Assembly: GCF_004138325.1 (NCBI RefSeq)
Contig: NZ_SBLB01000003.1
Span: forward strand, 1-64,000
Reading direction: 5' to 3'
Length of the DNA stretch: 64,000 nt
Source: Spirosoma sordidisoli
GTDB lineage: Bacteria; Bacteroidota; Bacteroidia; Cytophagales; Spirosomataceae
The notes beneath the pieces were generated by a model. That model was not told where the DNA came from. It saw only the letters and a program-made list of their open reading frames with translations, and searched no databases. The translations under genes were made by a program, and so were the position numbers. Of this stretch, positions 7,057 to 45,241 are shown one piece after another (position 1 is the first letter of the stretch; each line of letters starts with the position of its first letter).

Positions 7057-8441
7057 ACGCGCGATCGGTTTTTGTCGTACCACTCACCAAAACTTTGCGT
7101 GGGCGGGCTGGGCATGTCGCGCCCTTTATACCACGGATTCAACCGATTATTGACCAGCGCCGGAACGTGTTGCATCACCCACCGCCCGATACGGCCCGAC
7201 AGCCGGTAAACCGTAGGATGGCCCAGTACCCAGGCCATTCCTTTCATAGCTACCGTTTTAGCCGGGGGCGCCAGGCCTTCGGCTGTCAGCGTCTGCCGCC
7301 AGTGCCAGAGCTGTTCGTGAATGTTGATCTTGACAGGGCATACGTTGGTACAGCTGCCGCAAAGCGTACTGGCGAAGGGCAGATCGGCGTTTTTGCGCAT
7401 GTCGAGGTTGGGAGCCAGGATAGAGCCAATAGGCCCGGCCACGGCGTTGTGGTAGCTATGCCCGCCACTCCGGCGGTAAACCGGGCAGGTGTTGAAGCAG
7501 GCCCCGCAACGGATGCATTTGAGCGAGTTCCGAAACTCGGGCCGGCCCAGCTGGGTGCTGCGGCCGTTATCGACCAGGATAATATGCATGACCTGCCCGG
7601 CCCGGGGTCTGACGAAATGGCTCGAGTAGGTGGTGATCGGCTGGCCGGTTGCCGAGCGGGCCAGCAACCGCAGAAACACGCCCAGATGTTCCTGCCGGGG
7701 AATTACTTTTTCGATACCGAGACAGGCGATATGGACGTCGGCCAGATGCACCCCCAGGTCGGCATTTCCTTCGTTGGTACATACCACAAATCCGCCCGTT
7801 TCGGCAATGGCGAAGTTGACCCCCGTTATGGCGACAGATGCCGATACGAACTTTTCGCGGAGGTGGTGCCGGGCGGCTTCGGTCAGGTACTGCGGATCTT
7901 CGTTGCCGGCTTCGGTGCCCAGGTGTTGCTGGAAGGTGGCGCTGACGTCGGCCTTTTTCAAATGAATGGCCGGTAAGACAATGTGGCTGGGCGCTTCCTG
8001 GCGGAGCTGGACAATCCGTTCGCCCAGGTCAGTGTCGACTACCTCGACCCCATGTTTGATCAGAAACTCGTTCAGGTGACACTCTTCGGTCAGCATCGAC
8101 TTGCTCTTCACCACCCGGGGGGCTGCGGGGCCGGTCTGTTGCCGGATAATGTCCAGTACGATCTGGTTGTGTTCCGCAGCCGTGGCCGCCCAGTGTACCT
8201 GAATGCCGTTTGCCAGGGCGTTCTGCTCGAACTGGGTCAGGTACGTACTCAGCTCCGACAGCGCATGGTCTTTGATACCCGACGCCAGTTCGCGCAGGGC
8301 CTCCCATTCGGGAAGGGCGTGGGCCGATTTGTCGCGTTTCTGCCGGATAAACCACAACGTTTCATCGTGCCAGTCCGTACGGGCTTCGTCGGTCAGAAAC
8401 TGGCTGGCGGCCTGGGCGTGGGATACAAATCGCTGACTCAT
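7053..8441 (-). CDS. lutB: LutB, L-lactate utilisation iron-sulfur protein
   Basis: LutB/YkgF family, 462 residues. The first two thirds form a LUD domain, ending in a ferredoxin-like region with two [4Fe-4S] ligand sets, KCIRCGACFNTCPVYRR and LCGSCTNVCPVKINIHE. Together with LutA and LutC it would oxidise L-lactate to pyruvate in the cytoplasm and pass electrons to the respiratory chain. It starts 29 bases after lutA and overlaps lutC. Its place in a fucose operon is explained by the L-lactate released by the FAH hydrolase. Confidence 0.95.
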   Translation of the reverse strand: MSQRFVSHAQAASQFLTDEARTDWHDETLWFIRQKRDKSAHALPEWEALRELASGIKDHALSELSTYLTQFEQNALANGIQVHWAATAAEHNQIVLDIIRQQTGPAAPRVVKSKSMLTEECHLNEFLIKHGVEVVDTDLGERIVQLRQEAPSHIVLPAIHLKKADVSATFQQHLGTEAGNEDPQYLTEAARHHLREKFVSASVAITGVNFAIAETGGFVVCTNEGNADLGVHLADVHIACLGIEKVIPRQEHLGVFLRLLARSATGQPITTYSSHFVRPRAGQVMHIILVDNGRSTQLGRPEFRNSLKCIRCGACFNTCPVYRRSGGHSYHNAVAGPIGSILAPNLDMRKNADLPFASTLCGSCTNVCPVKINIHEQLWHWRQTLTAEGLAPPAKTVAMKGMAWVLGHPTVYRLSGRIGRWVMQHVPALVNNRLNPWYKGRDMPSPPTQSFGEWYDKNRSRV

Positions 8442-8470
8442 AACGTAGACGGATAGTAGCAGGCTTTGGT

Positions 8471-9190
8471 TTACAATGCATGATCAACCAGCAACTGAGC
8501 AACATGCCGGACCTGTATGGGCGATTGCTGCCGACGAAGAATCCCTTCCAGGTGCATCAGGCAGGACATATCGCCCCCCACGATATAGTCGACCTGGTTG
8601 GCCTGGTGCTGGGCCAGGCGGTCTTTCCCCATTTTCACCGAAAGAGCTTCCTGAGTCACGCAGAAGGTGCCGCCAAAGCCACAGCATTCGTCCGGGCGGG
8701 CGGGGGTCGTGATGTCGATGCCGTCGACGAGTTTCAGCAGGGCTTCCATCTTCGAGAAATACGGTTCGTTGCGTTCCGACATGGACGACAGACGCAGCCC
8801 GCGCTGCCCATGACAACTCTGGTGAATACCGATCCGCAGGGGCCGGCCCGACCGGTGGGGCAGAGCCCGTACCTGCAGGACATCGGTCAGAAATTCGCAC
8901 AACTCCCAGACCTGGCCGGTCAGAAGCGGATTGTGTTCCCGGACGTGCAGGACACACGAGCCCGATGGACAGACAATATGGTCGAATTCGCCAAAGTTCT
9001 GCCTGAAGTTCTGGTCACAGCCGGCGGCCTCGCGAGCAAAGCCCGAGTTGGCCATGGGCTGACCGCAGCAGGTCTGATTACGTGGCACAACGACCTGGCA
9101 ACCCAGTTGTTCGAGCAACTCGAGGGTCGCGATGGCAACAGCCGGATAGAACTGATCAACGTAGCAGGGAACAAACAAAGCAACGCGCAT
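8471..9190 (-). CDS. lutA: LutA, L-lactate utilisation protein A
   Basis: CCG-domain iron-sulfur protein (LutA/YkgE family), about 239 residues. It has two cysteine-rich motifs, NQTCCGQP near residue 49 and DECCGFGG in the C-terminal half, plus CPSGSC. The start at 9190 (MRVALFVPCYVDQF) matches the family's usual first strand; a Met directly before it (9193) is equally possible. An open frame runs 30 codons further upstream, but that stretch is unlike the family and lies in the promoter gap. It is the first gene of the minus-strand operon, facing the divergent AraC gene. Confidence 0.93.
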   Translation of the reverse strand: MRVALFVPCYVDQFYPAVAIATLELLEQLGCQVVVPRNQTCCGQPMANSGFAREAAGCDQNFRQNFGEFDHIVCPSGSCVLHVREHNPLLTGQVWELCEFLTDVLQVRALPHRSGRPLRIGIHQSCHGQRGLRLSSMSERNEPYFSKMEALLKLVDGIDITTPARPDECCGFGGTFCVTQEALSVKMGKDRLAQHQANQVDYIVGGDMSCLMHLEGILRRQQSPIQVRHVAQLLVDHAL

Positions 9191-9193
9191 CAT

Positions 9194-9380
9194 GCATCTG
9201 AATCGTTTCAGGATCCGGCCAGTACCAGAATTTTCTGGAAACCAGACGAATACAGAGCGTATGATTATGTTGCAAATCAATAGTATATTTCAAAGGGGTA
9301 GTTTTATAGGATTAACTTGTTTTACCACTATGTTAGCAATTTTGTAAGCTGTTTAAATCCATTGACGCTAATTGATAGGT
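9194..9380. promoter_or_regulatory. Divergent promoter region between the fucose operon and araC-type gene
   Basis: This stretch of about 187 bases separates the lutA start (minus strand) from the AraC-family start (plus strand). It is AT-rich from about 9270 to 9375, unlike the flanking genes, as expected for back-to-back promoters. A one-mismatch -7 element (CAATTTTG against TAnnTTTG) lies near 9338-9345 on the plus strand. No convincing -33 element or inverted operator repeat stands out, so the exact start points are not assigned. Confidence 0.5.
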
Positions 9381-10256
9381 ATGAAGCCGCAGCTACTTTT
9401 GGTGCCCGTTTCGTCCGAATGTTCGTTTAGTGTGCGGCAGGATGTCGTTCTTCATTTCTACAACCGCTGGCATTATCACCCCGAAATAGAACTACTGCAC
9501 ATTGAGCAGGGCAGCGGCACGCAGTTCGTGGGCGATAGTATTCAGAATTTTCAGTCGGGGGATGTGTTGCTGATCGGTGCTAACCTGCCCCACTACTGGC
9601 GCTGCGACAAAGAGTATTTTGAGAACCGGGAGGGTTTGTTTGCCAAGGCTACCGTGGTTCATTTTCGGGATAACTTCTGGGGCGATACGTTTTTGCAACT
9701 GCCCGAAAATCGGTACATCGTCCGTTTCCTCGATAAGGCCCGGCAGGGTGTACGGCTCCTCGGCACCACCCGTTCAGCCGTTAAACCGCTGCTGGCGCAG
9801 ATGCTCGCTGAGCACGGAACCGCCCGAATTGTTTCCCTGATCCAGATCCTCTCGCTGGTGGCCCAGTCAGACGAGCTGGAGTATCTGTCGACCAAAGACT
9901 ACCCCAGTTATTTCGATGAAGCCGACACCGACCGACTCAACCAGATATACGCCTACTCGCTGACTCACTTCACCAGGAAAATTTCGCTGGAAGAAATAGC
10001 CACGGTGGCAAACATGAGTCCGAACTCATTCTGTCGGTATTTCAAGTCGCGAAGTCGTAAGCCGTATTCGCAGTTTCTGCTCGAACTACGGGTCAGTCAC
10101 GCCTGTAAGCTGCTCATTGAAGGGAAGCTCAGTGTGGCGCAGGTGTGTTACGAAAGCGGGTTCAACCAGTTTTCGGGCTTCAACAAGTACTTCAGGCAGA
10201 TCACGGGAAAAAGCCCCCTCCAGTATCAGAAGTCATTCGGGAAGCCAGTTCGGTAA
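9381..10256 (+). CDS. AraC-family transcriptional regulator, probable fucose operon activator
   Basis: Protein of about 291 residues with an N-terminal cupin-like sensing domain (HYHPEIELLHIEQG, GDVLLIG, LPHYWRC) and a C-terminal double helix-turn-helix. The helix-turn-helix includes EEIATVANMSPNSFCRYFK and CYESGFNQFSGFNKYFRQITG, both typical of the AraC/XylS family. I chose the ATG at 9381; a TTG start three codons upstream is open but unlikely. It is transcribed divergently from the fucose/lactate operon, which is the usual arrangement for a pathway-specific regulator. The ligand is probably a fucose intermediate, but this is inference. Confidence 0.92.
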   Translation: MKPQLLLVPVSSECSFSVRQDVVLHFYNRWHYHPEIELLHIEQGSGTQFVGDSIQNFQSGDVLLIGANLPHYWRCDKEYFENREGLFAKATVVHFRDNFWGDTFLQLPENRYIVRFLDKARQGVRLLGTTRSAVKPLLAQMLAEHGTARIVSLIQILSLVAQSDELEYLSTKDYPSYFDEADTDRLNQIYAYSLTHFTRKISLEEIATVANMSPNSFCRYFKSRSRKPYSQFLLELRVSHACKLLIEGKLSVAQVCYESGFNQFSGFNKYFRQITGKSPLQYQKSFGKPVR

Positions 10257-10281
10257 AAGCTACATGTAGGTGTGACCTCCC

Positions 10282-10317
10282 CATAAAACAAAAGCCCGGC
10301 TCATTGCTGAACCGGGC
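10282..10317 (-). terminator. Rho-independent terminator of the esterase gene
   Basis: GCCCGG (10294-10299) pairs with CCGGGC (10312-10317) around a 12-base loop. Read on the minus strand it is followed by TTTTGTTTT, so it ends transcription of the esterase lipoprotein gene whose stop is at 10347. No T-run follows on the plus strand, so it should not terminate the AraC gene efficiently. Confidence 0.75.
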
Positions 10318-10346
10318 CCTGCGTACGTTACGTCTGTGGGTGATGA

Positions 10347-11504
10347 TTAGTTAAAGGCATTGCGTAGCTGAGTAGCCGCCAGTGCCTGCGCCTGCTGGGC
10401 CTCGGGCACGATGGCGTACATGCCGAAAAACTCGTGGGTAACCCCCGTGTAGAGCTGGTACGTTACCGAAACGCCCTGCGACTGAAGTTTGTCGCGCAGT
10501 TGCTGACCTTCGGTTTGCAGTGGGTCGATCTCGGCGGCAATGATGGTGGTGGGGGGCAGTCCACTCAGGTCAGTACCGGCATCGATCAGCGAAATCAGGG
10601 GCGTTTCGCCGTCGGCGGGTGAGTTGAAGTAGTTGGCAACGAAGTACTCAACCAGCGGCCGACTCAGCGGTTTGGCGTTGGCGTACTGATTATACGAGGG
10701 GGTGAACAGGTCGTTGTTAGCCACCGGATAAACCGACAGAATATGAGCGGGTAGCGGCAGCTTCCGGGTGCGGGCCATCATGCTGACCCAGACCGCCATA
10801 TTACCCCCGGCGCTCTCGCCGGCAATGGCTACCTTGTCCGGATTTCCGTTCAGCGACGCCGTATTGTTGCGTACCCATTCGTAGGCAGCATAGGCATCGT
10901 AATGGGCCGTGGGGAACTTGTTCTCGGGCGACAGCCGGTAATCGACCGACACCACGATAGCTCCCGTTTCTTCGGCCAGGGCCAGCGTCGAGTTCTCGTA
11001 CACTTCCGGACTGCCAATGACCCAGCCGCCACCGTGGTAGTACACAATCACCGGCAGGGGGCCAGTGGGGACGTTGGGCGTATACACCACAACCCGGATC
11101 GGTACGTTGTTGTAGCCCGGAATGGTACGCTGGCTACTAGTGACGTTGGCCGTGGGCCGGGGAATCTTGTTCTTATCGAGCAGCGAGTTTACCGCATCTT
11201 TGAAGGTTGGCTGTTTGCGGGCTTCGGCAGGGGGCAGCTGTTCCAGCGGAGTAGGCGCCAGGCGGCCCAGCTCTTCGATAACGGCCAGCATCTGCGGCTG
11301 AATGGTAGGCGCATAATCTGGTTTGGGTCCCGTTGCCTGAATCTGCTGACCCTGAAAGGGTTCGCGGTGATCTTCGCAGGCGAGCAGGGTGCCCGCCAGC
11401 AGCAGACTGTAAAAAGAGGCCGATCGAACGCGACCCGGCATAGAGCGGTACGCAGCCACTGAACCCGCTGCGATTCGGCGGACAAGCATGTTGAGATGAT
11501 TCAT
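10347..11504 (-). CDS. Alpha/beta-hydrolase esterase of the HSL family, lipoprotein
   Basis: Esterase/lipase of the hormone-sensitive-lipase type, 385 residues. It shows the oxyanion motif YYHGGGW, the nucleophile elbow AGESAGGN, the acid in EIDPLQTEG and the His in GVTHEFFG. A hydrophobic segment ending LLAGTLLAC near residue 43 looks like a lipoprotein signal, so the enzyme is probably anchored on the cell envelope. The first 20 or so residues are long for such a signal, and a start at MPGRVRSAS is possible. It stands alone with its own terminator. The substrate is unknown; short acyl esters are the family norm. Confidence 0.9.
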   Translation of the reverse strand: MNHLNMLVRRIAAGSVAAYRSMPGRVRSASFYSLLLAGTLLACEDHREPFQGQQIQATGPKPDYAPTIQPQMLAVIEELGRLAPTPLEQLPPAEARKQPTFKDAVNSLLDKNKIPRPTANVTSSQRTIPGYNNVPIRVVVYTPNVPTGPLPVIVYYHGGGWVIGSPEVYENSTLALAEETGAIVVSVDYRLSPENKFPTAHYDAYAAYEWVRNNTASLNGNPDKVAIAGESAGGNMAVWVSMMARTRKLPLPAHILSVYPVANNDLFTPSYNQYANAKPLSRPLVEYFVANYFNSPADGETPLISLIDAGTDLSGLPPTTIIAAEIDPLQTEGQQLRDKLQSQGVSVTYQLYTGVTHEFFGMYAIVPEAQQAQALAATQLRNAFN

Positions 11505-11674
11505 AACGTTTGTTTTAATTACTGTAGACTAACTAGGATACTATTTTTAGAGTTATGCAGACTTATTGAACGGTCTTGCATAAACGTCAGCTGCTTCGGC
11601 TACAGAACCGTTCGGGCTCAGCGCTTTTTGCAGGTGAAATAAAAGACCTGTGGGCAGACAACTAGCCGAATCCA

Positions 11675-11682
11675 TAGTTTTG
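11675..11682 (+). promoter_or_regulatory. Bacteroidota -7 element before kynU
   Basis: TAGTTTTG matches the Bacteroidota sigma-factor -7 consensus TAnnTTTG exactly. The kynureninase ATG begins only six bases after it, so transcription would start at or just before the start codon and the message would be almost leaderless. No good -33 TTTG box is seen 19-21 bases upstream, which lowers confidence. Confidence 0.45.
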
Positions 11683-11687
11683 CAGGT

Positions 11688-13019
11688 ATGACATACGAAA
11701 ACACGCTGGATTTTGCGCGTCAGCTCGACGCCGATGATTCGCTACGATCCTTTCGGAATCGGTTTTACATCCCGCAGCGAAACGGAACCGATCTGGTTTA
11801 CCTGTGCGGCAACTCGCTGGGCCTGCAGCCAAAGTCTGCCCGGGCCGCCCTGGATCAGGAGTTGACAACCTGGCAGCAGCTGGGGGTAGAGGGCTGGTTC
11901 GATAAACCCGAAGGCGCCGAACAGAACTGGCTTGGGTATCATAACACCTGCAAGGGAGCGCTGGGCCAGGTGGTAGGAGCCGACCCCGCCGAAGTTTGCC
12001 CCATGAACGCCCTGACCGTCAACCTGCATTTGCTGCTGGCCTCGTTTTACCGACCCGGCCAAAACGGCACCTCGGCATCCGGCAAGCCGAAATACAAGAT
12101 TCTGACGATCAAAGGCGACTTTCCGTCCGATCAGTATGCGCTGGAGACCCACCTGCAGCATCACGGGCTGACAACGGCCAACGCGCTGGTAGAAGTGGCT
12201 CCGCGGCCCGCCGATGGGCTGATACACACCACCGACATACAGGCTGCCATAGCCGAACATGCTGACGAGCTGGCCCTGGTCTGGATGAGCGGGCTGAACT
12301 ACTACACGGGGCAGGTCTACAACATGGCCGCGCTGGCCGAAGCCGCCCGCCGACATAATGTACCCATCGGTCTGGACCTGGCCCACGCCCTCGGGAATGT
12401 GCCGCTGCGGTTGCACGACTGGGGTGTCGATTTTGCCACCTGGTGTTCATACAAATACCTGAATGGGGGGCCTGGCGCCGTGTCGGGCATCTTTATCCAT
12501 GAAAAGCACCACGACCAGAACCGGGCAGGTGGTGCGCTGCCCCGACTGGCGGGCTGGTGGGGTTACCGGGAAGACCGGCGGTTTGAGATGAGCCCCGGAT
12601 TCCTGCCGGCCGCGGGAGCCGATGGCTGGCAGCTGAGCACGCCCAACATTATGGCACTCGCGCTACACCGGACCGCGCTGGCTATCACTGCCGAAGCCGG
12701 CATGACCGCGCTCCGCCAGAAAAGCGAGCGGTTAACGGGCTTTCTGGAACACATACTCGCCCCCTTTGATGACATACAGAGGCTGACGCCCGACGACCCT
12801 AACCAGCGGGGATGCCAGTTGTCGCTGCTCGTCCGTCGAAACGGAAAAGCCCTCTTCAGCTACCTAACCGAACAGGGCATCATTGGCGACTGGCGTGAAC
12901 CTGACTGTATCCGGCTGGCCCCGGTGCCGCTCTATAACACATTTGAGGATGTTTGGCGGGTAGGTGAAGCGCTACGCGGATTTTTTAGCACTGGCCGCCA
13001 GGCGTTCCTTGGTGAATAG
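11688..13019 (+). CDS. kynU: Kynureninase
   Basis: PLP-dependent fold-type I enzyme of 443 residues that cleaves kynurenine or 3-hydroxykynurenine to anthranilate or 3-hydroxyanthranilate plus alanine. The characteristic features are LCGNSLGLQPK near residue 40, the PLP-lysine motif WCSYKYLNGGPG, and the C-terminal stretch GDWREPDCIRLAPVPLYNTFED. No other tryptophan-catabolism gene is in the window, so it either takes part in a scattered pathway (catabolism or quinolinate-NAD synthesis) or salvages kynurenine. Its 3' end overlaps the convergent TetR gene by 48 bases. Confidence 0.97.
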   Translation: MTYENTLDFARQLDADDSLRSFRNRFYIPQRNGTDLVYLCGNSLGLQPKSARAALDQELTTWQQLGVEGWFDKPEGAEQNWLGYHNTCKGALGQVVGADPAEVCPMNALTVNLHLLLASFYRPGQNGTSASGKPKYKILTIKGDFPSDQYALETHLQHHGLTTANALVEVAPRPADGLIHTTDIQAAIAEHADELALVWMSGLNYYTGQVYNMAALAEAARRHNVPIGLDLAHALGNVPLRLHDWGVDFATWCSYKYLNGGPGAVSGIFIHEKHHDQNRAGGALPRLAGWWGYREDRRFEMSPGFLPAAGADGWQLSTPNIMALALHRTALAITAEAGMTALRQKSERLTGFLEHILAPFDDIQRLTPDDPNQRGCQLSLLVRRNGKALFSYLTEQGIIGDWREPDCIRLAPVPLYNTFEDVWRVGEALRGFFSTGRQAFLGE

Positions 13020-13610
13020 ATAGATGCCCTGGAAAATGTTTTTCAGGGCCTGTTCTATTTCCGCCCAGCCTTCGTCGGTGCTGGGGTCTATGCCCATGAC
13101 CTGCCGTTTTTGCTGACCGGTAAAGAGCAGAAGAGTCAGGGAGCTGACCAGAATGGCTGCGAAAGGGCGGGCATGGCTACTATGAACGATAGCCGACAGG
13201 TCATCGACCATTTTCACCAGCCGTTTCTCTTTCTCGGCGGTTATGGCGTGAACGATACCGTCGTTGCTTAGCAGCTTGGCCTTCAGAAGTTCCTGCGCTT
13301 CGATATCATGACGCAGCAACCTGAACTCTTCAATGACGTAGGTATAACAGGTATTGAAAAAGACCTCCAGCGAAGCGCCCTTTAGCTGGTCAATGTCGAT
13401 AGGCGGTACCGATGATGTTGGACGGGTTCGCTCGAAGTAGGCTTTGAGTAACCCGCCTAATCCCCCAAAGTATCGGTAAATCAGTATTTTATTGACGCCA
13501 GCCTGGCTCGCAACCCGGTTGATACCAATATGATCGAAGCCACTTTCCTTGACGAGTTGGCCAACAGCTTCAATAAGTCGGTTCTCCGTTTCCAGACGGC
13601 TACGTTGCAT
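12972..13610 (-). CDS. TetR-family transcriptional regulator
   Basis: About 212 residues with an N-terminal TetR helix-turn-helix (IGINRVASQAGVNKILIYRYFGG, roughly residues 28-50) and an unclassified helical ligand domain. The start at 13610 (MQRSRLETENRL) places the helix-turn-helix at the usual distance; a start 12 codons upstream is open. It runs convergently into kynU and the coding regions share 48 bases, so the two messages are antisense at their ends. Whether it regulates kynU is not shown by sequence, because its own promoter lies on the far side from kynU. Confidence 0.9.
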   Translation of the reverse strand: MQRSRLETENRLIEAVGQLVKESGFDHIGINRVASQAGVNKILIYRYFGGLGGLLKAYFERTRPTSSVPPIDIDQLKGASLEVFFNTCYTYVIEEFRLLRHDIEAQELLKAKLLSNDGIVHAITAEKEKRLVKMVDDLSAIVHSSHARPFAAILVSSLTLLLFTGQQKRQVMGIDPSTDEGWAEIEQALKNIFQGIYLFTKERLAASAKKSA

Positions 13611-13740
13611 AATCTGACAGTTGGTCGTGTAGATAGAACGCAGCAATGTAACCTGTCCGTATCATACCAACAAATCAAAATACGCTGGTTTTGAGGCAAC
13701 GGCTAACAAATTGACAGGCAGGTCAAAACTGACAAACTGG

Positions 13741-14682
13741 TTAGTAAGTCGAATTTTTAGCGAACGTAACGTTGCGTTTTAGTCCGTCAAGTTTGGTTCG
13801 CTTGACGGCCGACCGCCGGAACACCTCCCGAAAAACCTCTTCCGTGATTTCTTCCCAGTCGGTTCGGCTGAATTCGGCCAGGTCGGGGTGGGGGTCGAAA
13901 GCGGGCGTCTGGTGCGGTCGGGCAAAGCGGTTCCAGGGACATACGTTCTGGCAGATGTCGCAGCCAAAGACCCAGTTGTCGAACTTGCCCCGCACCTCGT
14001 CCGGAATGGCTTCTTTCAACTCGATGGTGAAGTAAGAGATGCACTTGCTACCGTCAACGACGTAGGGGCTCACGATAGCTTCCGTAGGACAGGCATCCAG
14101 ACAACGGGTGCAGGTGCCGCAGTAATCGGTGATCGGGCCGTCGGGTTCGAGTTCCAGATCGAGGATCAACTCGCCGATGAAGAAAAACGACCCCATCTGC
14201 CGATTGATCAGGTTGCTGTGTTTACCTACCCAGCCCACACCAGACCGTTTGGCCCAGGCTTTGTCCATAACCGGGGCCGAATCGACGAAGGCGCGCCCGC
14301 CCACTTCGCCAATTTCTTCGTGGATAAAGGCCATCAGGTCTTTCAGCTTGTCTTTAATGACAAAGTGGTAATCTTCCCCGTAGGCATATTTCGACAGTTT
14401 GTAGTCATCCTCGGCTTCGGGCAACGGCTGGCTGGGGTAATAGTTGAGCAGCACCGTAACCACCGACTTGGCCCCCTCAACGAGCAGTCGCGGGTCGAGC
14501 CGTTTGTCGAAATGGTTGGCCATGTAATTCATCTGGCCGTGCATCCCGTTTTTTAGCCAGGTTTCGAGCCGGGGTGCTTCCTCATCCAGGAAGTCGGCCC
14601 GGGCAATACCGCACACGTCGAACCCCAGTTCAAGGGCTTTGGCTTTCAGGCGGGTCGAATAATAGCTGGCTGGCGCGTGCAT
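13741..14682 (-). CDS. queG: Epoxyqueuosine reductase QueG
   Basis: Iron-sulfur and cobalamin enzyme of 313 residues that performs the last step of queuosine synthesis, reducing epoxyqueuosine in the wobble position of tRNA. The diagnostic stretches are [19 protein letters not shown] and [19 protein letters not shown], followed by two [4Fe-4S] motifs, [13 protein letters not shown] and [11 protein letters not shown]. The length matches the shorter form of the family, without the C-terminal HEAT-repeat extension. It stands alone on the minus strand, divergent from grpE. Confidence 0.96.
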
Positions 14683-36322: not shown

Positions 36323-36430
36323 AAGACGTAAGTAACGGGCAGAGATGTGAAAATCGGACGACCGGGAGCCCGCCGGGTAACCATATCGCTCAACAGCATG
36401 TCTGTAGAGAGACAACATGGATCAAGCAAC

Positions 36431-36802
36431 ATGACCGAACGAACCACCCCGTCGCGCCCCACGATCGATACTGAGCCAGGAGCTGTCAGTACCGCCGAGC
36501 AATTTCAGAACCAGACCCTCCGGCCCATACTCAAGATGCTGGATAACAGCCTGCTGACTTGCTGGAGCCACCACTGGCCCAAACGAAAAATCCGGTTCGA
36601 CCGCTTGTCGAAGCCCGATAAGCTGGCTCAGCTCGAACGGGCTGTTCGGGAAGATACCAAACTGCGGCTCACCCTCGTCGGTATGGTGCTGGGACATTTT
36701 ACGCCCGAAGAATGGAGCACGTTTATGGCCGAGGAGCCTGAAATTACCCGCCGAATGCTGGCCCTGCTGATTCAGCGGCTACAGAGCCACGTACACGAGT
36801 AG
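36431..36802 (+). CDS. Conserved hypothetical protein
   Basis: About 123 residues from MTERTTPSRP; 28 further codons are open upstream. The N-terminal third is disordered (Thr/Pro/Ser). The rest is helical, with LRPILKMLDNSLLTCWSHHWPKRK and LTLVGMVLGHFTPEEWSTFMAEEPEITRRMLALLIQRLQ. This layout recurs in small Bacteroidota proteins, but I know no function. The stop lies two bases before the convergent stop of the next gene. Confidence 0.65.
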   Translation: MTERTTPSRPTIDTEPGAVSTAEQFQNQTLRPILKMLDNSLLTCWSHHWPKRKIRFDRLSKPDKLAQLERAVREDTKLRLTLVGMVLGHFTPEEWSTFMAEEPEITRRMLALLIQRLQSHVHE

Positions 36803-36804
36803 CC

Positions 36805-37308
36805 CTAGAACAAACGGCTCCAGGCAAAGCGGATCAGGAGTAACAGGCCAATGAATCCGACCAGTATGTAGACGAACGGGATGTAGGTAACCGCGTAGAT
36901 GCGGGTCCGGTCAACGAACCAGAGGATACCCATAATAGCGGCAATGAGCGTCAGAAAGCCAGATAATTTGCCGAATCCGGGTATGTAGCTGAACGGAATC
37001 TTTCGCCGAATCATCATCAGCGTGGCCACCATGGTCAGGATGGGCAGCAGCTGAACGGCGAGGTTCATGTCCCAGATGCTTTGGCGCTCAAACAGAAATA
37101 GATAGACGTTCAGGGTCAGTGCAAACACGCCCGGCAGGCACGCCAGATAGACCAGCGCTGCGTACACATAACGCCATTGCCAGATCGATTCGGCCGTGTG
37201 GCCCGACCAGAGGTTAACTAAAAATGCTCCTGTGGGTACGGCCGACAGGAGCAGAAAAAGCAGGGTGGGTTGCCCGGAGAGGAGGTCAAATAAGGCGCGT
37301 AGTGTCAT
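36805..37308 (-). CDS. Membrane protein of unknown function
   Basis: About 167 residues from MTLRALFDLL, with four or five hydrophobic segments (FLLLSAVPTGAFLV, YVYAALVYLACLPGVFALTL, LLPILTMVATLMMI, FLTLIAAIMGILWFV, YILVGFIGLLLLIRF). No family is recognised. It lies downstream of the actin-fold gene on the same strand, 114 bases away with a hairpin between, so it may be the distal gene of that operon. Confidence 0.7.
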   Translation of the reverse strand: MTLRALFDLLSGQPTLLFLLLSAVPTGAFLVNLWSGHTAESIWQWRYVYAALVYLACLPGVFALTLNVYLFLFERQSIWDMNLAVQLLPILTMVATLMMIRRKIPFSYIPGFGKLSGFLTLIAAIMGILWFVDRTRIYAVTYIPFVYILVGFIGLLLLIRFAWSRLF

Positions 37309-37422: not shown

Positions 37423-38478
37423 TTACTTCAGCGTCAGCAGGTAGCCAATGGTAAAGTTGGCATCCCAGTCGAAGACAAACTGCTCGGCGCCGGTAGCATC
37501 GGCAATGGCCCGGTAGATGTTGACCCCTGCTTTCGACTTGGCGTTTTCTACCTTGTAGGCCGAGGGAGCATTCAGCACCGTATAGCGCTCCTTGCCGCTT
37601 CGTACCTCTTTGGCCAGTTCAAACGGCACGCCACCGATGATGAAGCATATTTTGCGGTGATCGGCCGGGATCTGTTTGGCCTTGGCCTTCACTTCATTAT
37701 AAACGGCATCGTCGCTCGTGCCATTCTGGAAGTATTTGGAGCCGTAGGTTTCGATCGCTTTCGTTTGCCCGCCCTCTTTCCAGGATAGCTTGGTATTCCC
37801 CGAGCCAATGTCGACAACAAACGCATTGTCGTAGAAGTCGGCGGGTAATACCGCCCGCAGGGCCAGGGAGCCCTCCTGCTCGGGGCTTACGGTATTGACT
37901 ACGTAATTCAGCGATTTGAGCGCCCGGATAATTTTCTGGGTCCCCTCGGCCTTGACCGCGCCGGAACTGACAACGAACTGGATATCGCGACCACCTACGC
38001 CGAAATCGAGCATTTTGCCGATGTAGCTTTTCAAGCCCCCGCGCACATCGTCGTCGGTCGCCATGTTCTCCATGACCAGGCTATTGCCAAATTCAGCTTT
38101 TTCGAGTTTCCAGTTTTTCTGATCATCAATCCGCACAATGAACGAGTTGAAGCCGCTGGCGCCCAGCTCAACGACCCCTTTCAGCTTACCATTTTGCGGG
38201 GCCGGGGGCGTAAAGGTAAACGGTTGACGCGTGCTGCTGCTGGCCGTCGTTTCGGTAGATGAACTCGACGAACCCGATCCATTATCCGACGCCACCGACT
38301 CGTCGGTCGAGGCTGTCGACTCCTCGTCGGCGCGGGGCATGGTAGCTGATTCAGACTCCTGTTTGGGAGCCAGTTTCCGAAGCGCATCGTTTCCGCCAAA
38401 ATAACGGAACCCGAAGAAGATAGCGGCCAGGATCAGGGCCGTGATGAGCAGCCGACCGGCCACGGTTAAACGTTGCAT
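37423..38478 (-). CDS. Membrane-anchored actin-fold (Ppx/GppA-like) protein
   Basis: A 351-residue protein with one N-terminal membrane helix (about 10-27), a Ser/Thr/Glu-rich linker (about 40-90) and a C-terminal domain with ASKHA nucleotide-binding features. Phosphate-1-like GVVELGASGFNSFIVRID is at 101-117, phosphate-2-like VVDIGSGNTKLSW at 221-233, and an adenosine-site-like FIIGGVPFEL at 279-288. The layout recalls exopolyphosphatase/GppA, but Glu104 replaces the usual Asp in the first motif and the domain is short. It is the last of three co-oriented genes with two coiled-coil proteins. Function unknown; a nucleotide-dependent membrane or cell-surface role is inferred. Confidence 0.75.
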   Translation of the reverse strand: MQRLTVAGRLLITALILAAIFFGFRYFGGNDALRKLAPKQESESATMPRADEESTASTDESVASDNGSGSSSSSTETTASSSTRQPFTFTPPAPQNGKLKGVVELGASGFNSFIVRIDDQKNWKLEKAEFGNSLVMENMATDDDVRGGLKSYIGKMLDFGVGGRDIQFVVSSGAVKAEGTQKIIRALKSLNYVVNTVSPEQEGSLALRAVLPADFYDNAFVVDIGSGNTKLSWKEGGQTKAIETYGSKYFQNGTSDDAVYNEVKAKAKQIPADHRKICFIIGGVPFELAKEVRSGKERYTVLNAPSAYKVENAKSKAGVNIYRAIADATGAEQFVFDWDANFTIGYLLTLK

Positions 38479-38520
38479 AGGGTATAGCGTAAAAGGTGAT
38501 TTGTTTATTGGTTTTTATTA

Positions 38521-38575
38521 AGTGGATGAGTGAATTCGTGATTGACTAGGTAGCTGAAACAATCACTCATCCACT
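38521..38575. repeat. Purine-rich hairpin inside the coiled-coil operon
   Basis: AGTGGATGAGTGA (38521-38533) pairs perfectly with TCACTCATCCACT (38563-38575) around a 29-base loop. It lies in the 103-base gap between the second and third genes of the operon, without a T-run. A short direct repeat ATTGACTA occurs in the loop (38541) and just after the stem (38577). Confidence 0.6.
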
Positions 38576-38581
38576 AATTGA

Positions 38582-39613
38582 CTAATCCAGCAGGTTGCGG
38601 TAGCCAGCGTCTTTGGGTGGGGTGATCTGGCCGGGCTGGGGCGCGGTAATGGGGTTAGGGGCGCCGGGCGTGTCTAACTGAACCATCCTGAATTCGCCTT
38701 TATTATAAGCCTCGAGCAGCGCCTGACCCTTGTCAGACAGAATACCGTTCTGAATATCGACGCCATTGATGAAGTCCATGGATAGGTCCATAGCCCGCTT
38801 CATCTCGCCCAGTTTCTGGCTCATGTCGTCCTGGATGTATTCCATCGACTGGTCGAAATAGAACTTCTTGTCCGGATCGCCTTTGAAGATGCTGACCGCG
38901 GTTTTGAGCGCGTTTGAGCTTTCTTTGACAATCTGGTACTCGGTTTCCTTGAGCCGGACTTTAATCTCGGTTTCCTTGATAATGTAGTCGGCGCTCTGGT
39001 TGACCTTTTCCATAAAGGCCAGCACCATCGTAATATTCCGCTGGAGGGGCAGCAGCTTCTCATTCATTTCCTGCAAGCCCGCTCCCTCGATGGTGGCCAG
39101 CTGTGCCTGCTCGCGCATACCGGGTCGGTCGGTCATACCGTTGGCTTTGTTAGCCTCCGCGAATTTCTGCTTGATGGTTTCGTTGTTCTGGCTGATGCGT
39201 TTGTTCAGCTTGACCAGCTGGCCGGCCAGCGTATCGATCTGCCCCTGCATCTCCTGCCGCTTCTTACGCAGATCGTCGATGTAGATCTTCATGATTGCGA
39301 TCGGGTTAAGCTGGATAACGGTGCCGGTTATACTGCGCATGAGCGATTTGAACAGGAAGAAAACGGCCGTTCGCACGTCGCGGCTGGTAACCAGAAAGAT
39401 CACCACGCCCAGCACGCCCAGCAACAGCGCCAGTTCGAGTACGTTTGAGGTGGCCCGGATCAGAAACTCAATGATCCGGTTGAAGTAAACCAGGCCGAAG
39501 CCCGCCACCCCGGCCAGCACGATCATGCCCAGTATGCCTTCGGGACGGCTCCAGAACGAACGTTTCTCTACGTCCGTCTTGCCGCCCAGTTGTGAAAAAT
39601 CAGGAGTTGCCAT
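38582..39613 (-). CDS. Coiled-coil membrane protein of unknown function
   Basis: A 343-residue protein with two adjacent membrane segments (about 27-47 and 57-77) and a long helical region (about 105-290) rich in Lys, Glu and Gln that should form coiled coils (DDLRKKRQEMQGQIDTLAGQ and beyond). The last 45 residues are Pro/Gly-rich. The long helical hairpin is reminiscent of PspA-type membrane-stress proteins, but no diagnostic PspA motif is seen. It is the middle gene of the operon with 39720-40433 and 37423-38478. Confidence 0.72.
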   Translation of the reverse strand: MATPDFSQLGGKTDVEKRSFWSRPEGILGMIVLAGVAGFGLVYFNRIIEFLIRATSNVLELALLLGVLGVVIFLVTSRDVRTAVFFLFKSLMRSITGTVIQLNPIAIMKIYIDDLRKKRQEMQGQIDTLAGQLVKLNKRISQNNETIKQKFAEANKANGMTDRPGMREQAQLATIEGAGLQEMNEKLLPLQRNITMVLAFMEKVNQSADYIIKETEIKVRLKETEYQIVKESSNALKTAVSIFKGDPDKKFYFDQSMEYIQDDMSQKLGEMKRAMDLSMDFINGVDIQNGILSDKGQALLEAYNKGEFRMVQLDTPGAPNPITAPQPGQITPPKDAGYRNLLD

Positions 39614-39719
39614 GTATTTTGTTTTCGTTTGACAGTGTAATCGGTTCGGTTGCGGATGGCTGCGGGTACGACCAGGCAGTAGGCCACCAGTGGTACCCGG
39701 AGAACCGCAAACCGTCTTC

Positions 39720-40433
39720 CTAGTTCAAATAGCTTTTGATCTTGTCGATATCCGCCTTGATCTGATCCGTAAAGTGAGCAAACGTGGCGTCGTAGCTGGC
39801 CCGGTTCTGGGTAATCTTCGTACTCTGCTCCGTTATTTCGCCCCCGATAGCGTTCAGCCGCTGGGTGTTGGCATCGATCTGTTTCTGAATCTCCAGCAGC
39901 TGTTTGGCCAGTGCTTCGCTTTCAGCCTGTAATCGCTTCTGTTCGTTCTGCAGCCCCCCAACCCGTTCGGCCAGGGCAGCTTCCACGCTTTTGCTGAAAC
40001 CATCGCGATCCTTGTTCAGGGCCGCTATGTACTGGCTGGCCGTATTGGTCAGTAGACTCACGTCGGCTTTGCCGCTTAGCGCCTTGAAGCTGGCCCAGGC
40101 GGCCTGGTACTGCTTCTCTTCCGTCAGGCCCAGGTTGTTCAGGCTACGCAGGGTTTCCCGAAACTCGAAATAGTCCGGTCCGGGCGGATTGTTCTGGGCC
40201 AGCACATCGGCAAAATGCTGCGCAAATTTGGGGTCTACCGTACCGGGGGGCACGGCCGGGGTCGGCGCCGGGCCGACTGGCGATGCGGGCACAGGCTGAG
40301 CCGGCGCGGCTGGCCGGGGTTGGGCGTTCGTACTGGCCGGGGCGGTTCCGGCAGCGGTTCCGGGCGCGGCTTCCTCCTCTTTGACGAAGAAACTCAGGAT
40401 TTTGCGGCCAATCGATTGGTCTGGTTCGGGCAT
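39720..40433 (-). CDS. Coiled-coil protein with Pro/Ala-rich linker, unknown function
   Basis: A 237-residue soluble protein. A short charged N-terminus (KILSFFVKEEE) is followed by a Pro/Ala/Thr-rich linker (about 22-68). A helical domain (FAQHFADVLAQNNPPGPDYFEF and the region after) leads into a C-terminal coiled coil (about 150-235, heptads through NEQKRLQAESEALAKQLLEI). There is no signal peptide. It is the first gene of the three-gene operon; the next gene starts 106 bases further on. The domain is not recognised. Confidence 0.72.
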   Translation of the reverse strand: MPEPDQSIGRKILSFFVKEEEAAPGTAAGTAPASTNAQPRPAAPAQPVPASPVGPAPTPAVPPGTVDPKFAQHFADVLAQNNPPGPDYFEFRETLRSLNNLGLTEEKQYQAAWASFKALSGKADVSLLTNTASQYIAALNKDRDGFSKSVEAALAERVGGLQNEQKRLQAESEALAKQLLEIQKQIDANTQRLNAIGGEITEQSTKITQNRASYDATFAHFTDQIKADIDKIKSYLN

Positions 40434-40655: not shown

Positions 40656-41333
40656 TTAGTTGGGCTTCTTCAGCCAGCTGGCCATGCGTTCGCGGAACTT
40701 CTCTACTTTAGGCGTAGACACCGAGCTGACATAAAGCTCGTCGGGGTGGGTATAATAGTAGCCCTGGTGATAGACTTCGGCCGGGTAAAAAGCCCGGAAC
40801 GGTACGACCTGCGTCACAACAGGTCGGCTGTATCGACCCGATTCATTTTCGCGACGGATGGCGGTTTCGATACTGGCTTTCTCGGCGGGGGTCCGGTAAA
40901 AGGCAATGGACCGGTATTGCGTGCCTACGTCGGGTCCCTGCCGATTCAGCGAGGTGGCGTCGTGGCCGATGAAGAAAGCTTTGACCAGCGTATCGAACGG
41001 AATGACGCGCGGGTCATAATAGACCTGAATCGATTCGGCATGGCCGGTCTGATCGGTGCCGACCTGTTCGTAGGTGGGGTTCTCCAGCTCGCCACCGGCA
41101 TAGCCCGAAACGACCTCGCGCACCCCGCGCAGCGATTCAAACTGGGCTTCGGTACACCAGAAGCAACCGGCTGCGAACGTGGCTACGGCTTCGCCGGATT
41201 GCAGCTCAGGGAGTTTGGCCGGGCTGGTATCTTTGGGTGAGTTGTTGGTAGATGACTGCTGCTGGCAGCCTGTCATCAGCAAGGCCGCTACCAGCAGGGA
41301 AGCAGTGGTCAGAAAAGCACGGGTTGTTGTCAT
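40656..41333 (-). CDS. msrA: Peptide methionine sulfoxide reductase MsrA, lipoprotein form
   Basis: Repairs Met-S-sulfoxide in proteins. Of its 225 residues, the first 22 form a lipoprotein signal (LLMTGC), then a Gln/Ser linker, so this copy works at the envelope rather than in the cytoplasm. The catalytic motif GCFWCTEAQFE carries the active Cys, and GTQYRSIAFY and the Tyr-rich PAEVYHQGYY match MsrA. No MsrB domain is fused or adjacent. It is divergent from miaE. Confidence 0.95.
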   Translation of the reverse strand: MTTTRAFLTTASLLVAALLMTGCQQQSSTNNSPKDTSPAKLPELQSGEAVATFAAGCFWCTEAQFESLRGVREVVSGYAGGELENPTYEQVGTDQTGHAESIQVYYDPRVIPFDTLVKAFFIGHDATSLNRQGPDVGTQYRSIAFYRTPAEKASIETAIRRENESGRYSRPVVTQVVPFRAFYPAEVYHQGYYYTHPDELYVSSVSTPKVEKFRERMASWLKKPN

Positions 41334-42241: not shown

Positions 42242-45241
42242 ATGACGTTTCTTCAACAAACGGCTCGACGCATTTTTGACACCCACGGTCCCAGTCTCCG
42301 CGATGTGTGGGTCATATTGCCTACCCGGCGGGCTGTTTCGGTATTTCTGGATGAGCTGGCCGCTTTGTCAGACCGTCCATTCCTGGCTCCGCACGCTCTC
42401 GCCGTCGACGATTTTATCACCCAGGCCGCCGGGGTGCAGCTGATCGACTCGGTCAGTCTGGTGTTCGAGCTCTACGAGGTCTTCAAAGAAATCGATCCGC
42501 TGGTAGAGTTCGAGCAGTTTATCGGCTGGGCCAATGTCTTGCTGACGGATTTTGACCGGATGGATCAGTACCTGGTCAATCCCCACGAACTGTTTAGCTA
42601 CCTGACGGCGGCCAAAGCCCTCGAGCGCTGGCAGGTCGACATGCCTTCGTCGGCCCAGCCCCTGGTCGAGACGCCCGGTACAGCCCGGTATTTTAAACTT
42701 TTCGAAAACCTGCAGGCTGCGTACCACGCCCTCCACCAGCGGCTCAATGAGCAGGGGCTGGCTTATCGGGGTATGGCCTACCGGCTGCTGGCTGAACAGG
42801 TCGAGCCGTTGGTTCGCGACAACCTGGCCTACGAACAACTCTATTTTGTGGGGTTCAATGCCCTCAGCCGGGCCGAAGAGCAAATGATTCGGGTGTTGGT
42901 CGACGCCAGCAAAGCCGAACTGATCTGGGATGCCGACCTCTATTATATGGACGACCGGCGGCAGGAGGCCGGGGAGTTTCTGCGCCGGTACCGCGACAAT
43001 GGATGGTTCTTCTCCCGGCAAAACCACGCCGACCTGCGCAACGACTCGAACAACCTGCTCGGTACCGACAAAAACATCCGTGTTATTGGGGTTCCCAACG
43101 CCAGTATGCAGGCCAAAGTAGCCGGCAAACTATATCGGGACTGGAGCGATAACGCCAAGAGGGATACCGGAGAGGAGCAAACTCGGTCAACGCACCCGCG
43201 GACGGCGATCGTGCTGGCCGACGAAACCCTGCTGGTGCCGGTGCTGTATGCCCTCGACGAAGGGGTTACCGACCTCAACGTAACCATGGGTCTGTCGCTA
43301 CGATCGTCGCTGCTGTTTACCCTGGTTGATACCCTGTTTGAGATGCAGCGGACTGTACACGAGTTCCGCACCCGCGACGGGCGGGATTTGCGGATTCCGA
43401 AGTTTCACCACCGCCACGTGGTGAAGGTACTCAACCACCCCTTTGTTAAGCAGTACGAACGGATTCAGCAGCTGGAGTGGCCCGGCGGAACGGATGAAAA
43501 AGGCGTGGTCGAGCCTCCCGAACCGCTGTTTCAGTGGATTGCCAGAACCATCGTAAAAGACCAGCGCGTTTACCTGACCGAAAAAGAACTTCACGAGCTG
43601 GGGCTGAACGATCCGCTGGTTCGGGTGCTGTTTACCCGCTGGCCCAGCGACAACCCCGCTCGCGCCATTCAGACCTTCTACGAGCTGATCGATCTGCTGC
43701 GCGATGTGTATCGGGTTAGTCAGGACGCTATCGAAATCGAATACCTCTATCTGTTCTATACGCTGCTGCAACAGCTCGAAACCACCCTCGACCGGCAGCG
43801 ATCCGACGGGCGAACGACCATCACGCTGAAAAGCTTCCGTCAGTTTTTGTATGAGCTGATTCGACAAACCAGTATTCCGTTCACCAGCGAAGGCCGTAGC
43901 TCGCTGCAGATTATGGGGATGCTGGAAACGCGCGCCCTTGACTTTGACCGGGTTATCGTGCTGTCGGTCAACGAGGGCGTGCTGCCACAATCGCGCCGGC
44001 TGAACTCGCTGATCCCGTTCGATATTGCCCAGGAGCTGCAGCTGCCTACCTATCGGGAGCAGGAAGCCGTTATGGCCTATCACTTCTACCGGCTGCTCCA
44101 GCGGGCCAGCGAAATCGTCCTGATTCATACAACCTCGACGGATGCCTACGGGAACAGCAAAGGGGAGCCCAGCCGGTTTGTACGGCAAATTGAACACGAG
44201 CTGGTGCCCCGCTCTCAGGGACGCATCCGGCTTACCAAACCTTCGGTGCGGTTTGGTCCCGTTGGAGCCGATAAGTTACCCGGCCTGACCGACCTCCAGG
44301 TGCCTAAAACCGATTCGATCCGGGCCGACCTGATTACGTTGCTGACGACCCGGGGGCTGTACCCGTCGTACCTGAACCAGTTTGTGAGCTGCTCCATGCG
44401 CTTCTATTTCAGCCGGCTCGTGAAGATCAGTGAGGAAGAGGATATCGAAGAAAAAATGGGCGTTACGGACTTCGGAAACTGGATGCACCTGGTTCTGGAG
44501 CGGCTCGACAAGGAATACCGCCTGCTCAACAAACCCATCGACGAACTCTTGATCGTGCAGTTGCTCGAAGAGGAATTTGCCCGGACTATGAAAGGGCGGG
44601 TGATGGAATCGGGCATCAATTTGCTGCTCTACGACCTGGCCAAAAAGCTGATGCTCGATTTTCAGCGGCAGCAAAGTGAGCTGAGCGGGCTTACGGTCAT
44701 TGGCTCCGAACAGACCCTCGATACCTACATCGATGTGCCCCTGAACGGGCGGCAGCTACACGTTCGGATTGCCGGCAAGATCGACCGGATCGAGCAGTAC
44801 GGCGGGCAAATCCGGATTGTCGATTATAAGACGGGCAAAGTCGATCTGCCCGACAAAACCCCGAAAGACCTGGCCGACAAACTGCTTAACGATGGGTCGG
44901 CCGATAAGATGCGGCAGCTGTGGATGTATCGCTATCTAACCCTCAAAAACATCCGCGACTACGGCGGACTGCCCCGCAATAAAGACATTGCCGACGTGTT
45001 TCCTGCCCAGGGGATGACGGTTGAGGCTGGCTTCTATTCATTTCGGGATGTACAGGGCGGTTTCAAGTCAAACCCGGTGCGCTTCGATGAAAACGATGAT
45101 CCTGAGCAGTACATTCAGGATTCAGAGAATTTACTACGCCAGCTGATCCAGCGCATGTTTGACCCCAGCGAGCCCTTCCGCAAAACCGATCAGCTCGAAA
45201 CCTGTCAGTACTGCGATTACAAAGGTATCTGCGGCCGATAA
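42242..45241 (+). CDS. AddB-like PD-(D/E)XK exonuclease with iron-sulfur cysteines
   Basis: DNA repair nuclease of 999 residues. The first 600 residues resemble the inactivated helicase half of AddB (PTRRAVSVFLDEL in place of a Walker A loop). The C-terminal RecB-type nuclease domain shows GNWMHLVLERLD, IAGKIDRIEQYGGQIRIVDYKTGK with the Asp and Lys of the PD-(D/E)XK site, and four cysteines, one in VSCSMRFYF and three in ETCQYCDYKGICG, that should hold a [4Fe-4S] cluster. Double-strand break end processing for recombination is the expected role. Its partner AddA is not in the window. A strong terminator follows. Confidence 0.9.
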   Translation: MTFLQQTARRIFDTHGPSLRDVWVILPTRRAVSVFLDELAALSDRPFLAPHALAVDDFITQAAGVQLIDSVSLVFELYEVFKEIDPLVEFEQFIGWANVLLTDFDRMDQYLVNPHELFSYLTAAKALERWQVDMPSSAQPLVETPGTARYFKLFENLQAAYHALHQRLNEQGLAYRGMAYRLLAEQVEPLVRDNLAYEQLYFVGFNALSRAEEQMIRVLVDASKAELIWDADLYYMDDRRQEAGEFLRRYRDNGWFFSRQNHADLRNDSNNLLGTDKNIRVIGVPNASMQAKVAGKLYRDWSDNAKRDTGEEQTRSTHPRTAIVLADETLLVPVLYALDEGVTDLNVTMGLSLRSSLLFTLVDTLFEMQRTVHEFRTRDGRDLRIPKFHHRHVVKVLNHPFVKQYERIQQLEWPGGTDEKGVVEPPEPLFQWIARTIVKDQRVYLTEKELHELGLNDPLVRVLFTRWPSDNPARAIQTFYELIDLLRDVYRVSQDAIEIEYLYLFYTLLQQLETTLDRQRSDGRTTITLKSFRQFLYELIRQTSIPFTSEGRSSLQIMGMLETRALDFDRVIVLSVNEGVLPQSRRLNSLIPFDIAQELQLPTYREQEAVMAYHFYRLLQRASEIVLIHTTSTDAYGNSKGEPSRFVRQIEHELVPRSQGRIRLTKPSVRFGPVGADKLPGLTDLQVPKTDSIRADLITLLTTRGLYPSYLNQFVSCSMRFYFSRLVKISEEEDIEEKMGVTDFGNWMHLVLERLDKEYRLLNKPIDELLIVQLLEEEFARTMKGRVMESGINLLLYDLAKKLMLDFQRQQSELSGLTVIGSEQTLDTYIDVPLNGRQLHVRIAGKIDRIEQYGGQIRIVDYKTGKVDLPDKTPKDLADKLLNDGSADKMRQLWMYRYLTLKNIRDYGGLPRNKDIADVFPAQGMTVEAGFYSFRDVQGGFKSNPVRFDENDDPEQYIQDSENLLRQLIQRMFDPSEPFRKTDQLETCQYCDYKGICGR

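Follow-up and report, generated by a model that had tools for sequence, protein, structure and literature searches.

A conserved three-gene operon in Spirosoma joins two coiled-coil proteins with a membrane-anchored protein of predicted Ppx/GppA fold, a proposed variant of PSP/Snf7-type envelope operons

The first 64,000 nucleotides of contig NZ_SBLB01000003.1 of Spirosoma sordidisoli (RefSeq assembly GCF_004138325.1), referred to as the window, contain three co-oriented genes on the minus strand, here named A, B, and C, with intergenic gaps of 106 and 103 bases. Gene A (39720-40433, minus strand) encodes a soluble protein of 237 residues, composed of a short N-terminal segment, a Pro-rich linker, a conserved helical domain with a motif around GPDYFEF, and a C-terminal coiled coil. 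The scan for transmembrane (TM) windows gave none for A and showed a Pro-rich N-terminal part. Gene B (38582-39613, minus strand) encodes 343 residues, starting with two TM helices and a short loop (residues 26-76, at 39386-39538 of the minus strand; TM windows 26-44 and 58-76). These are followed by a long predicted helical hairpin (104-159 and 166-240, at 38894-39304 of the minus strand), a helix at 248-284, a short helix at 294-304, and a tail. Gene C (37423-38478, minus strand) encodes 351 residues, with a conserved anchor helix (residues 1-26, at 38401-38478 of the minus strand; single TM window at about 4-22), a linker with 30% Ser/Thr, and a predicted Ppx/GppA-fold domain (residues 95-351, at 37426-38196 of the minus strand) that is probably periplasmic. 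A sequence-only reading of this DNA had described the three products as a soluble coiled-coil protein with a Pro-rich linker, a two-helix membrane coiled-coil protein, and a protein with one membrane helix and a Ser/Thr linker. All three genes are open reading frames (ORFs) of the minus strand, and each of these descriptions agrees with the TM windows and the composition of the products.

A, B, and C are a conserved operon. All 36 genomes of the genus, the window's own included, contain C and B, and 35 contain A. The three genes are adjacent in each of the 14 same-genus loci examined, with varying flanking genes, which bears out the three-gene operon proposed from the sequence. In a wider set of 59 relatives, again with the window's own genome, C and B are matched in 39 genomes each and A in 38. 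The 78 loci that are best by B similarity among the matches listed have A and B adjacent on the same strand in 71 cases and B and C adjacent in 53, counts that lean to close relatives and include loci L144 and L192, where a full C follows B. Outside the Saprospiraceae-type group, A, B, and C are all labelled in 50 of 64 loci (L129-L192), and C is found in none of the 14 loci L193-L206, which are by title mostly from Saprospiraceae. Incomplete sets comprise A-B pairs that lack C (f12, f26, f23, and Arcicella-type loci) and, in part of the f26 loci, a B that lacks A; C adjoins an A-type gene in genomes G040 and G246, in both of which B is unmatched. A survey of 296 genomes from the phylum gave matches to B in 12 and to C in 13, weak ones included. 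The weak C matches (G071, G092, G187, G147, G196, G114, and G258; E values of 4e-10 to 5e-5) were otherwise left out of the C counts, and two of them (L101 and L102) were nonetheless included in alignment A4.

In some families, an OmpA protein that also has a binding-protein part, which we call P, stands where the operon would otherwise have C. Genomes G047 and G222 (both f12) and G308 have A-B followed by a P of 592-613 residues with a C-terminal OmpA domain and then a permease-like gene; the P proteins of G047 and G222 show additional NMT1-type matches below threshold. The Flavilitoribacter locus L205 has A-B together with a protein matching NMT1 (5.5e-15) and OmpA (1.4e-22), which was retained as P, in a separate subtype, by these two matches, its operon place, and its anchor. 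A fuller operon is found in G140 (L238), with A, a two-TM coil protein (B'), P, a permease-like gene, an ABC ATPase, and an AAA+ ATPase with AAA_lid_6. The operons of G344 and G258 have the G140 layout by profile and size, the AAA+ ATPase of G258 also being typed. The P profile spans positions 76-590 in L238, where Pfam sees OmpA alone, and the B profile matches the coil gene in two of the G140, G344, and G258 loci (8.7e-7 and 2.6e-7), the third being unmatched. A phylum-wide search for P matched 291 of the 296 genomes, nearly all through the OmpA domain only, and full-length P is present in 6. Loci L195 and L200 were tried as further P loci and rejected, their match being limited to the OmpA domain.

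The main text of PMC11237479 (Ravi et al. 2024) describes PspA and TM-Snf7 homologues that occur with AAA+ proteins, ABC ATPases, permeases, and PBPB-OmpA proteins. The likeness to these PSP/Snf7-TM operons lies in the L238 layout A - B' - P - permease - ABC ATPase - AAA+, with L237 and L239 alike, and in the pairing of a TM-anchored coil protein with a second coiled-coil protein (PMC11237479). The A-B-C unit differs from the operons described there in that it has the coil pair only, and a Ppx-fold protein on a similar anchor replaces P; the full set of PSP/Snf7-TM operon genes was not found in the window, which holds the A-B pair alone with C in the place of P. Neither Ppx nor ASKHA is mentioned in the main text of PMC11237479. 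The statement of the sequence-only reading that none of the three proteins belongs to a known family was too strong, since C has the Ppx/GppA fold by its model and the A-B pair occurs in the operon type that this main text describes. A TelA/XpaC-like stress operon was also considered and dropped, PF05816 and PF10112 being unmatched in the window genome (G000).

The structure model of C clearly points to a Ppx/GppA (ASKHA) fold, and it is the structural evidence, not the sequence, that bears this assignment. The model was predicted from close C sequences only (pLDDT 78.9, pTM 0.69), and residues 98-351 superpose on Ppx/GppA with a Z score of 22.3 and 3.1 Å over 246 residues. The next structural neighbours are NTPDases of the CD39 family with Z scores of about 18, a different family to which C is less close than to Ppx/GppA, and all 50 structural matches listed for the model are Ppx/GppA proteins or NTPDases. 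The Ppx/GppA-like ASKHA domain that had been read from the sequence, with structure prediction named as the way to check it, is thus recovered by the model. By sequence, window C matches Pfam Ppx-GppA (PF02541) with an E value of 9.6e-4 and 19.1 bits, under the gathering score of 27. Eight relatives scanned singly gave 2.8e-6 to 8e-3, one of them above the cut-off (L042, 27.5 bits), and the remote members L101 and L102 are above the gathering score of this family.

The putative active site of C is altered in a constant way. Invariant in 15 of 15 C sequences are E104, E202, D223, G225, G227, N228, T229, K230, G282, and G283. Glu104 stands at the position of the first Asp in 15/15 sequences of alignment A4 and 23/23 of alignment A8, as the sequence-only reading had noted for the window protein. 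E202 and D223, kept in all 15, occupy the positions of the catalytic E121 and D143 of Escherichia coli Ppx, and Lys230 occupies, again in 15/15, that of E150, the Glu of GGGSTE, so the catalytic trio E121/D143/E150 is incomplete in C, its third member being Lys. Compared with the exopolyphosphatases and pppGpp phosphatases of the Ppx/GppA family (PDB IDs 6pc2, 1t6c, and 3mdq), C shares the fold over 98-351 and has E202 and D223 at catalytic places, but differs by its anchor, its probable periplasmic side, the Glu for the first Asp, and the Lys for the GGGSTE Glu; it also ends with the Ppx core, and the window protein is under the Pfam cut-off.

Yeast Rtg2p signals from the mitochondria to the nucleus, and its known partners are unrelated. 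According to passages of PMC5417653, Rtg2p is a signalling protein of the Ppx/GppA family with Gln at the E150 position, and changes at E121, D143, and E150 of E. coli Ppx leave residual activity. Rtg2p is thus like C in the role proposed here, as a Ppx-fold signalling protein substituted at this place, with Gln where C has Lys (PMC5417653). A Lys at the position of the catalytic Glu speaks for sensing over fast hydrolysis, and the changed site of C favours a binding or sensing role, with catalysis possible.

Alternatively, C could be a working periplasmic phosphatase, a tethered polyphosphate or nucleotide hydrolase that scavenges phosphate in the manner of an ecto-NTPDase, with A-B as its scaffold. 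NTPDases have an ASKHA fold active outside the cytoplasm and are not known to have coil partners. The invariant pair at the E121 and D143 places and the rank of the NTPDases among the structural neighbours fit such an enzyme, but the constant Lys and Glu substitutions at the E150 and first Asp places speak against it, as does P, which in the same operon place combines binding-protein and OmpA parts and contains no phosphatase. We regard this alternative as unlikely.

Some further C-type genes were observed in other contexts. The Ppx-fold proteins of L101 (9379-10437) and L102 (8790-9866) form a second, remote family with signal-peptide-like N-termini and scores above the Pfam cut-off; their genes adjoin a related gene of 419 residues, which in L101 is an MFS transporter by Pfam. 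Locus L100 of G144 encodes a pair of C homologues, both lipoprotein-like and separated by about 5 kb (7535-8476 and 13204-14166), with A and B absent from the 20 kb around. In L099 of G246 (8529-12223), genes for a sigma-70 factor and a FecR protein come after an A-type gene and C. One same-genus C gene (G015:C1:1674184-1675226) was matched as two overlapping pieces, being either a broken copy or an assembly error.

The N-terminal anchor connects C with P. A C-anchor profile of 32 columns was run on 2447 ORF N-termini from 102 loci, and beyond C only P proteins scored at E < 0.01 (L205, 1.9e-10; L043, 9.6e-6; L098, 2.8e-3; L086, 1.4e-5), the next unrelated N-terminus having an E value of 0.17. 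The anchor is therefore common to C and four of the seven P proteins examined. The mean identity to the window residue is 0.76 in the anchor and 0.77 in the Ppx domain, and 0.31 in the linker. Lipobox-like N-termini are seen by eye in the C homologues of G144, and signal-peptide-like ones in the remote homologues of G258 and G114. The periplasm is where OmpA domains and solute-binding domains function. The Ppx domain of C very probably lies there too, given that OmpA-domain proteins at the corresponding operon position have the anchor in common with C and that lipoprotein-like and signal-peptide-like C homologues exist. It would thus be apart from A and the coils of B, which we infer to be cytoplasmic. 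That this lone helix is specifically conserved suggests that it may dock on another protein, the two TM helices of B being the simplest candidate.

This location bears on the proposal of the sequence-only reading that an actin-fold protein next to long coiled coils could form a filament-like or membrane-stress system. Membrane stress is the better half of that guess, and filaments are disfavoured by a fold of Ppx/GppA type (Z 22) in a domain that is probably periplasmic. A membrane-tethered actin-like protein polymerising in the cytoplasm beside the coiled coils would be a cytoskeletal system; the ASKHA fold of C and the long coiled coils are compatible with it, and MreB is among the weak profile matches of C. 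Among the profile and structural matches of C, a closer similarity to the actin family (MreB, ParM) than to other ASKHA proteins was not found, MreB reaching an E value of 0.075 at best, and the best structural matches are Ppx/GppA followed by NTPDases. Together with the probable periplasmic side, this makes the actin-like system the least likely of the alternatives, and we consider it highly improbable.

The A-B-C unit is conserved and looks like a variant of a described envelope operon, not like a new cytoskeleton. In its specific form, the reading we prefer sees in A-B-C a PSP/Snf7-type envelope operon in reduced form, with the periplasmic head swapped for a Ppx-like sensor of a phosphate ligand, a proposal for which we see about even chances. 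With somewhat less confidence, we propose that a membrane-anchored, ESCRT-III-like coil may be controlled from outside by whole periplasmic sensor domains exchanged on one conserved docking helix, the head being of solute-binding/OmpA type in some families and of Ppx/ASKHA type elsewhere. Among the open-access papers listed by literature searches, we recognised none on a periplasmic Ppx-fold protein in such an operon.

Several results weigh against this preferred reading. The likeness to the operons of PMC11237479 is by the textual description given there. Regarding C, the sequence evidence for membership in Ppx/GppA is weak without the two remote members: a profile of 23 close C sequences reached at best an E value of 0.069 against Ppx structures (1t6d), and the stronger values of 4.3e-9 (A4 profile) and 2e-15 (Pfam) both hinge on the signal-peptide-bearing L101 and L102. 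The positive-inside charges leave the side of C undecided. The anchor profile scores weakly on the P proteins of G258, G140, and G344 (L237, L238, and L239; 0.25 to 1.6) and on C of G040 (1.3), and the profile match of the L205 P to other P proteins is nearly confined to the OmpA domain. Strong C (6 genomes, E < 1e-50) and full-length P (6 genomes, E < 1e-100) occur together in none of the 296 genomes, which is the chance expectation. Scattered homologues had been named beforehand as a sign against a functional unit; the outcome is mixed, as the genes are neighbours in the majority of loci L129-L192, whereas C is separate in G036, where it lies about 6 kb away on the opposite strand, and in G121 and G214, which are both of the f26 genomes that have C. 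A-B loci with neither C nor P are not rare.

For B, the question is whether the protein is PspA/ESCRT-III-like or a generic coil. Its helices after the TM pair (104-159, 166-240, 248-284, and 294-304) come in the order known from PspA/Vipp1. The Foldseek search with the B model returned VIPP1 as the top match (E 0.019), with PspA 1-144 fitting at 2.0 Å on rank 50 (E 0.36). In VIA-align, the hairpin superposes on VIPP1 (PDB ID 7o3w, residues 16-157) with a Z score of 10.4 and 1.9 Å over 142 residues, where Z scores under 13 may, by the program's own warning, be generic for long helices. PspA_IM30 (PF04012) is the Pfam family matched by most B members (9/19 and 14/29 at E values up to 1, the best being 3.5e-7), and the best B in the genome scan for PspA, from G047, reaches 33.1 bits against a gathering score of 33.9. 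We lean toward a PspA/ESCRT-III-like B.

Homology of B to PspA/ESCRT-III is not established. The B model is weak (pLDDT 60.5), the Foldseek search with it gave no match at E < 0.001, and window B itself has no PspA_IM30 match at E values up to 1. A PspA profile built from 15 sequences of same-order relatives leaves true B within the coiled-coil background; the B-labelled set in this test included the PspA of G325, which was the sole E value under 0.01. Among 150 block-shuffled decoys, 2 scored at least as high as B did against PspA in hhalign, and which region aligned depended on the alignment used. TACC_C, an unrelated coiled-coil family, matches B members with 7.6e-6. BAR domains score up to Z 11.6 on the B model, above VIPP1, so that residues 104-240 superpose on VIPP1/PspA and equally on BAR domains. 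Compared with PspA/Vipp1, B also differs by its two TM helices, and the sequence relation is not significant in the tests made. An equivalence of P104 of B with VIPP1 residue 25 was tried and dropped, being supported by the ends of the aligned ranges only (offset 79 in 7o3w, 8qhx, and 6zvs, and 82 in 4whe).

These scores can also be explained by A-B being a structural or cell-shape scaffold, with a BAR-like or chemoreceptor-like coil that is not ESCRT-III-like and with C and P as alternative sensors on it; this retains the periplasmic sensor and drops the membrane remodelling. Chemoreceptor coils, like BAR domains, score as high as VIPP1 on the B model, and the PspA-profile and hhalign decoy tests leave B unseparated from the coiled-coil background. 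Set against this are the closer fit of the best VIPP1 superposition, given that the BAR rows fit at 3.0 Å or more, though over more residues, and an operon context that equals that of the PSP/Snf7-TM operons in the main text of PMC11237479. We hold the scaffold to be doubtful and retain the preference for a PspA/ESCRT-III-like B.

Canonical PspA was found above the cut-off in none of the 36 genomes of the genus, with one sub-threshold match, and is present in 11 of the 59 relatives. The B match of G325 is PspA by Pfam and was not used as B, and the match in G191 was likewise not used. In G325, this PspA (Pfam, 1e-20) lies in a run of co-oriented genes (L105:8148-11525), and G191 contains a relative of one of these genes.

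The neighbouring genes of the unit are less constant. Gene D (36805-37308, minus strand) encodes 167 residues with about five TM windows and no Pfam match. It had been suggested as a possible fourth member; D follows C in only 4 of the 14 same-genus loci, and it is therefore not a regular part of the unit but a facultative neighbour. Upstream of A lies a peptide methionine sulfoxide reductase gene (40656-41333, minus strand; Pfam PMSR, 1.2e-56) with a lipoprotein-like N-terminus, which is the neighbour of A in many, not all, same-genus loci and is probably outside the A-B-C unit. A small plus-strand ORF at 36347-36802 is without a Pfam match; in the same-genus locus L058, a homologue with 65% identity lies close to the unit. 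The ARAGORN tRNA call at 42781-42874, without a proper anticodon and inside the ORF 42242-45241, is probably spurious. In other genomes, a gene for an ApbE-family protein stands right after B in the Saprospiraceae loci L194 (9011-10111) and L196 (4286-5359). Loci L177 and L186, titled Flavobacterium sp. SUN052 and Cellulophaga sp. BC115SP, encode B proteins 70-75% identical to window B, and these titles may be misassigned.

In the mechanism we propose, B would be anchored in the inner membrane by its two helices and place a PspA/ESCRT-III-like hairpin on the cytoplasmic face, with A as its soluble coiled-coil partner, the membrane sides and the assembly being inferred. C would cross the membrane by its one conserved helix, which would dock against the TM helices of B, and place the Ppx/GppA-fold domain in the periplasm. 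There, the domain may bind or slowly turn over a phosphorylated ligand, such as polyphosphate, a nucleotide, or another polyphosphorylated compound, and this event would switch the membrane-bound A-B coils to another assembly state, with envelope protection as the output. Ligand, signalling step, and output are all hypothetical. In the fuller operons, P may play a C-like role for its solute and for peptidoglycan.

If this model is correct, C would be a first case of a Ppx-fold protein that senses a phosphorylated ligand in the periplasm and is coupled to an ESCRT-III-like machine of bacteria, and with a Ppx-fold domain outside the cytoplasm its substrate could not be the usual cytoplasmic pool. 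The exchange of heads on one anchor, which was absent from the sequence-only reading, is the newest part of the proposal. If the swapped periplasmic domain sets the state of the coil, two natural heads on similar anchors would make the signal path testable by exchange. The finding also bears on how the assembly of PspA homologues without an associated AAA+ ATPase may be controlled, an issue that PMC11237479 raises in its main text and leaves unsettled.

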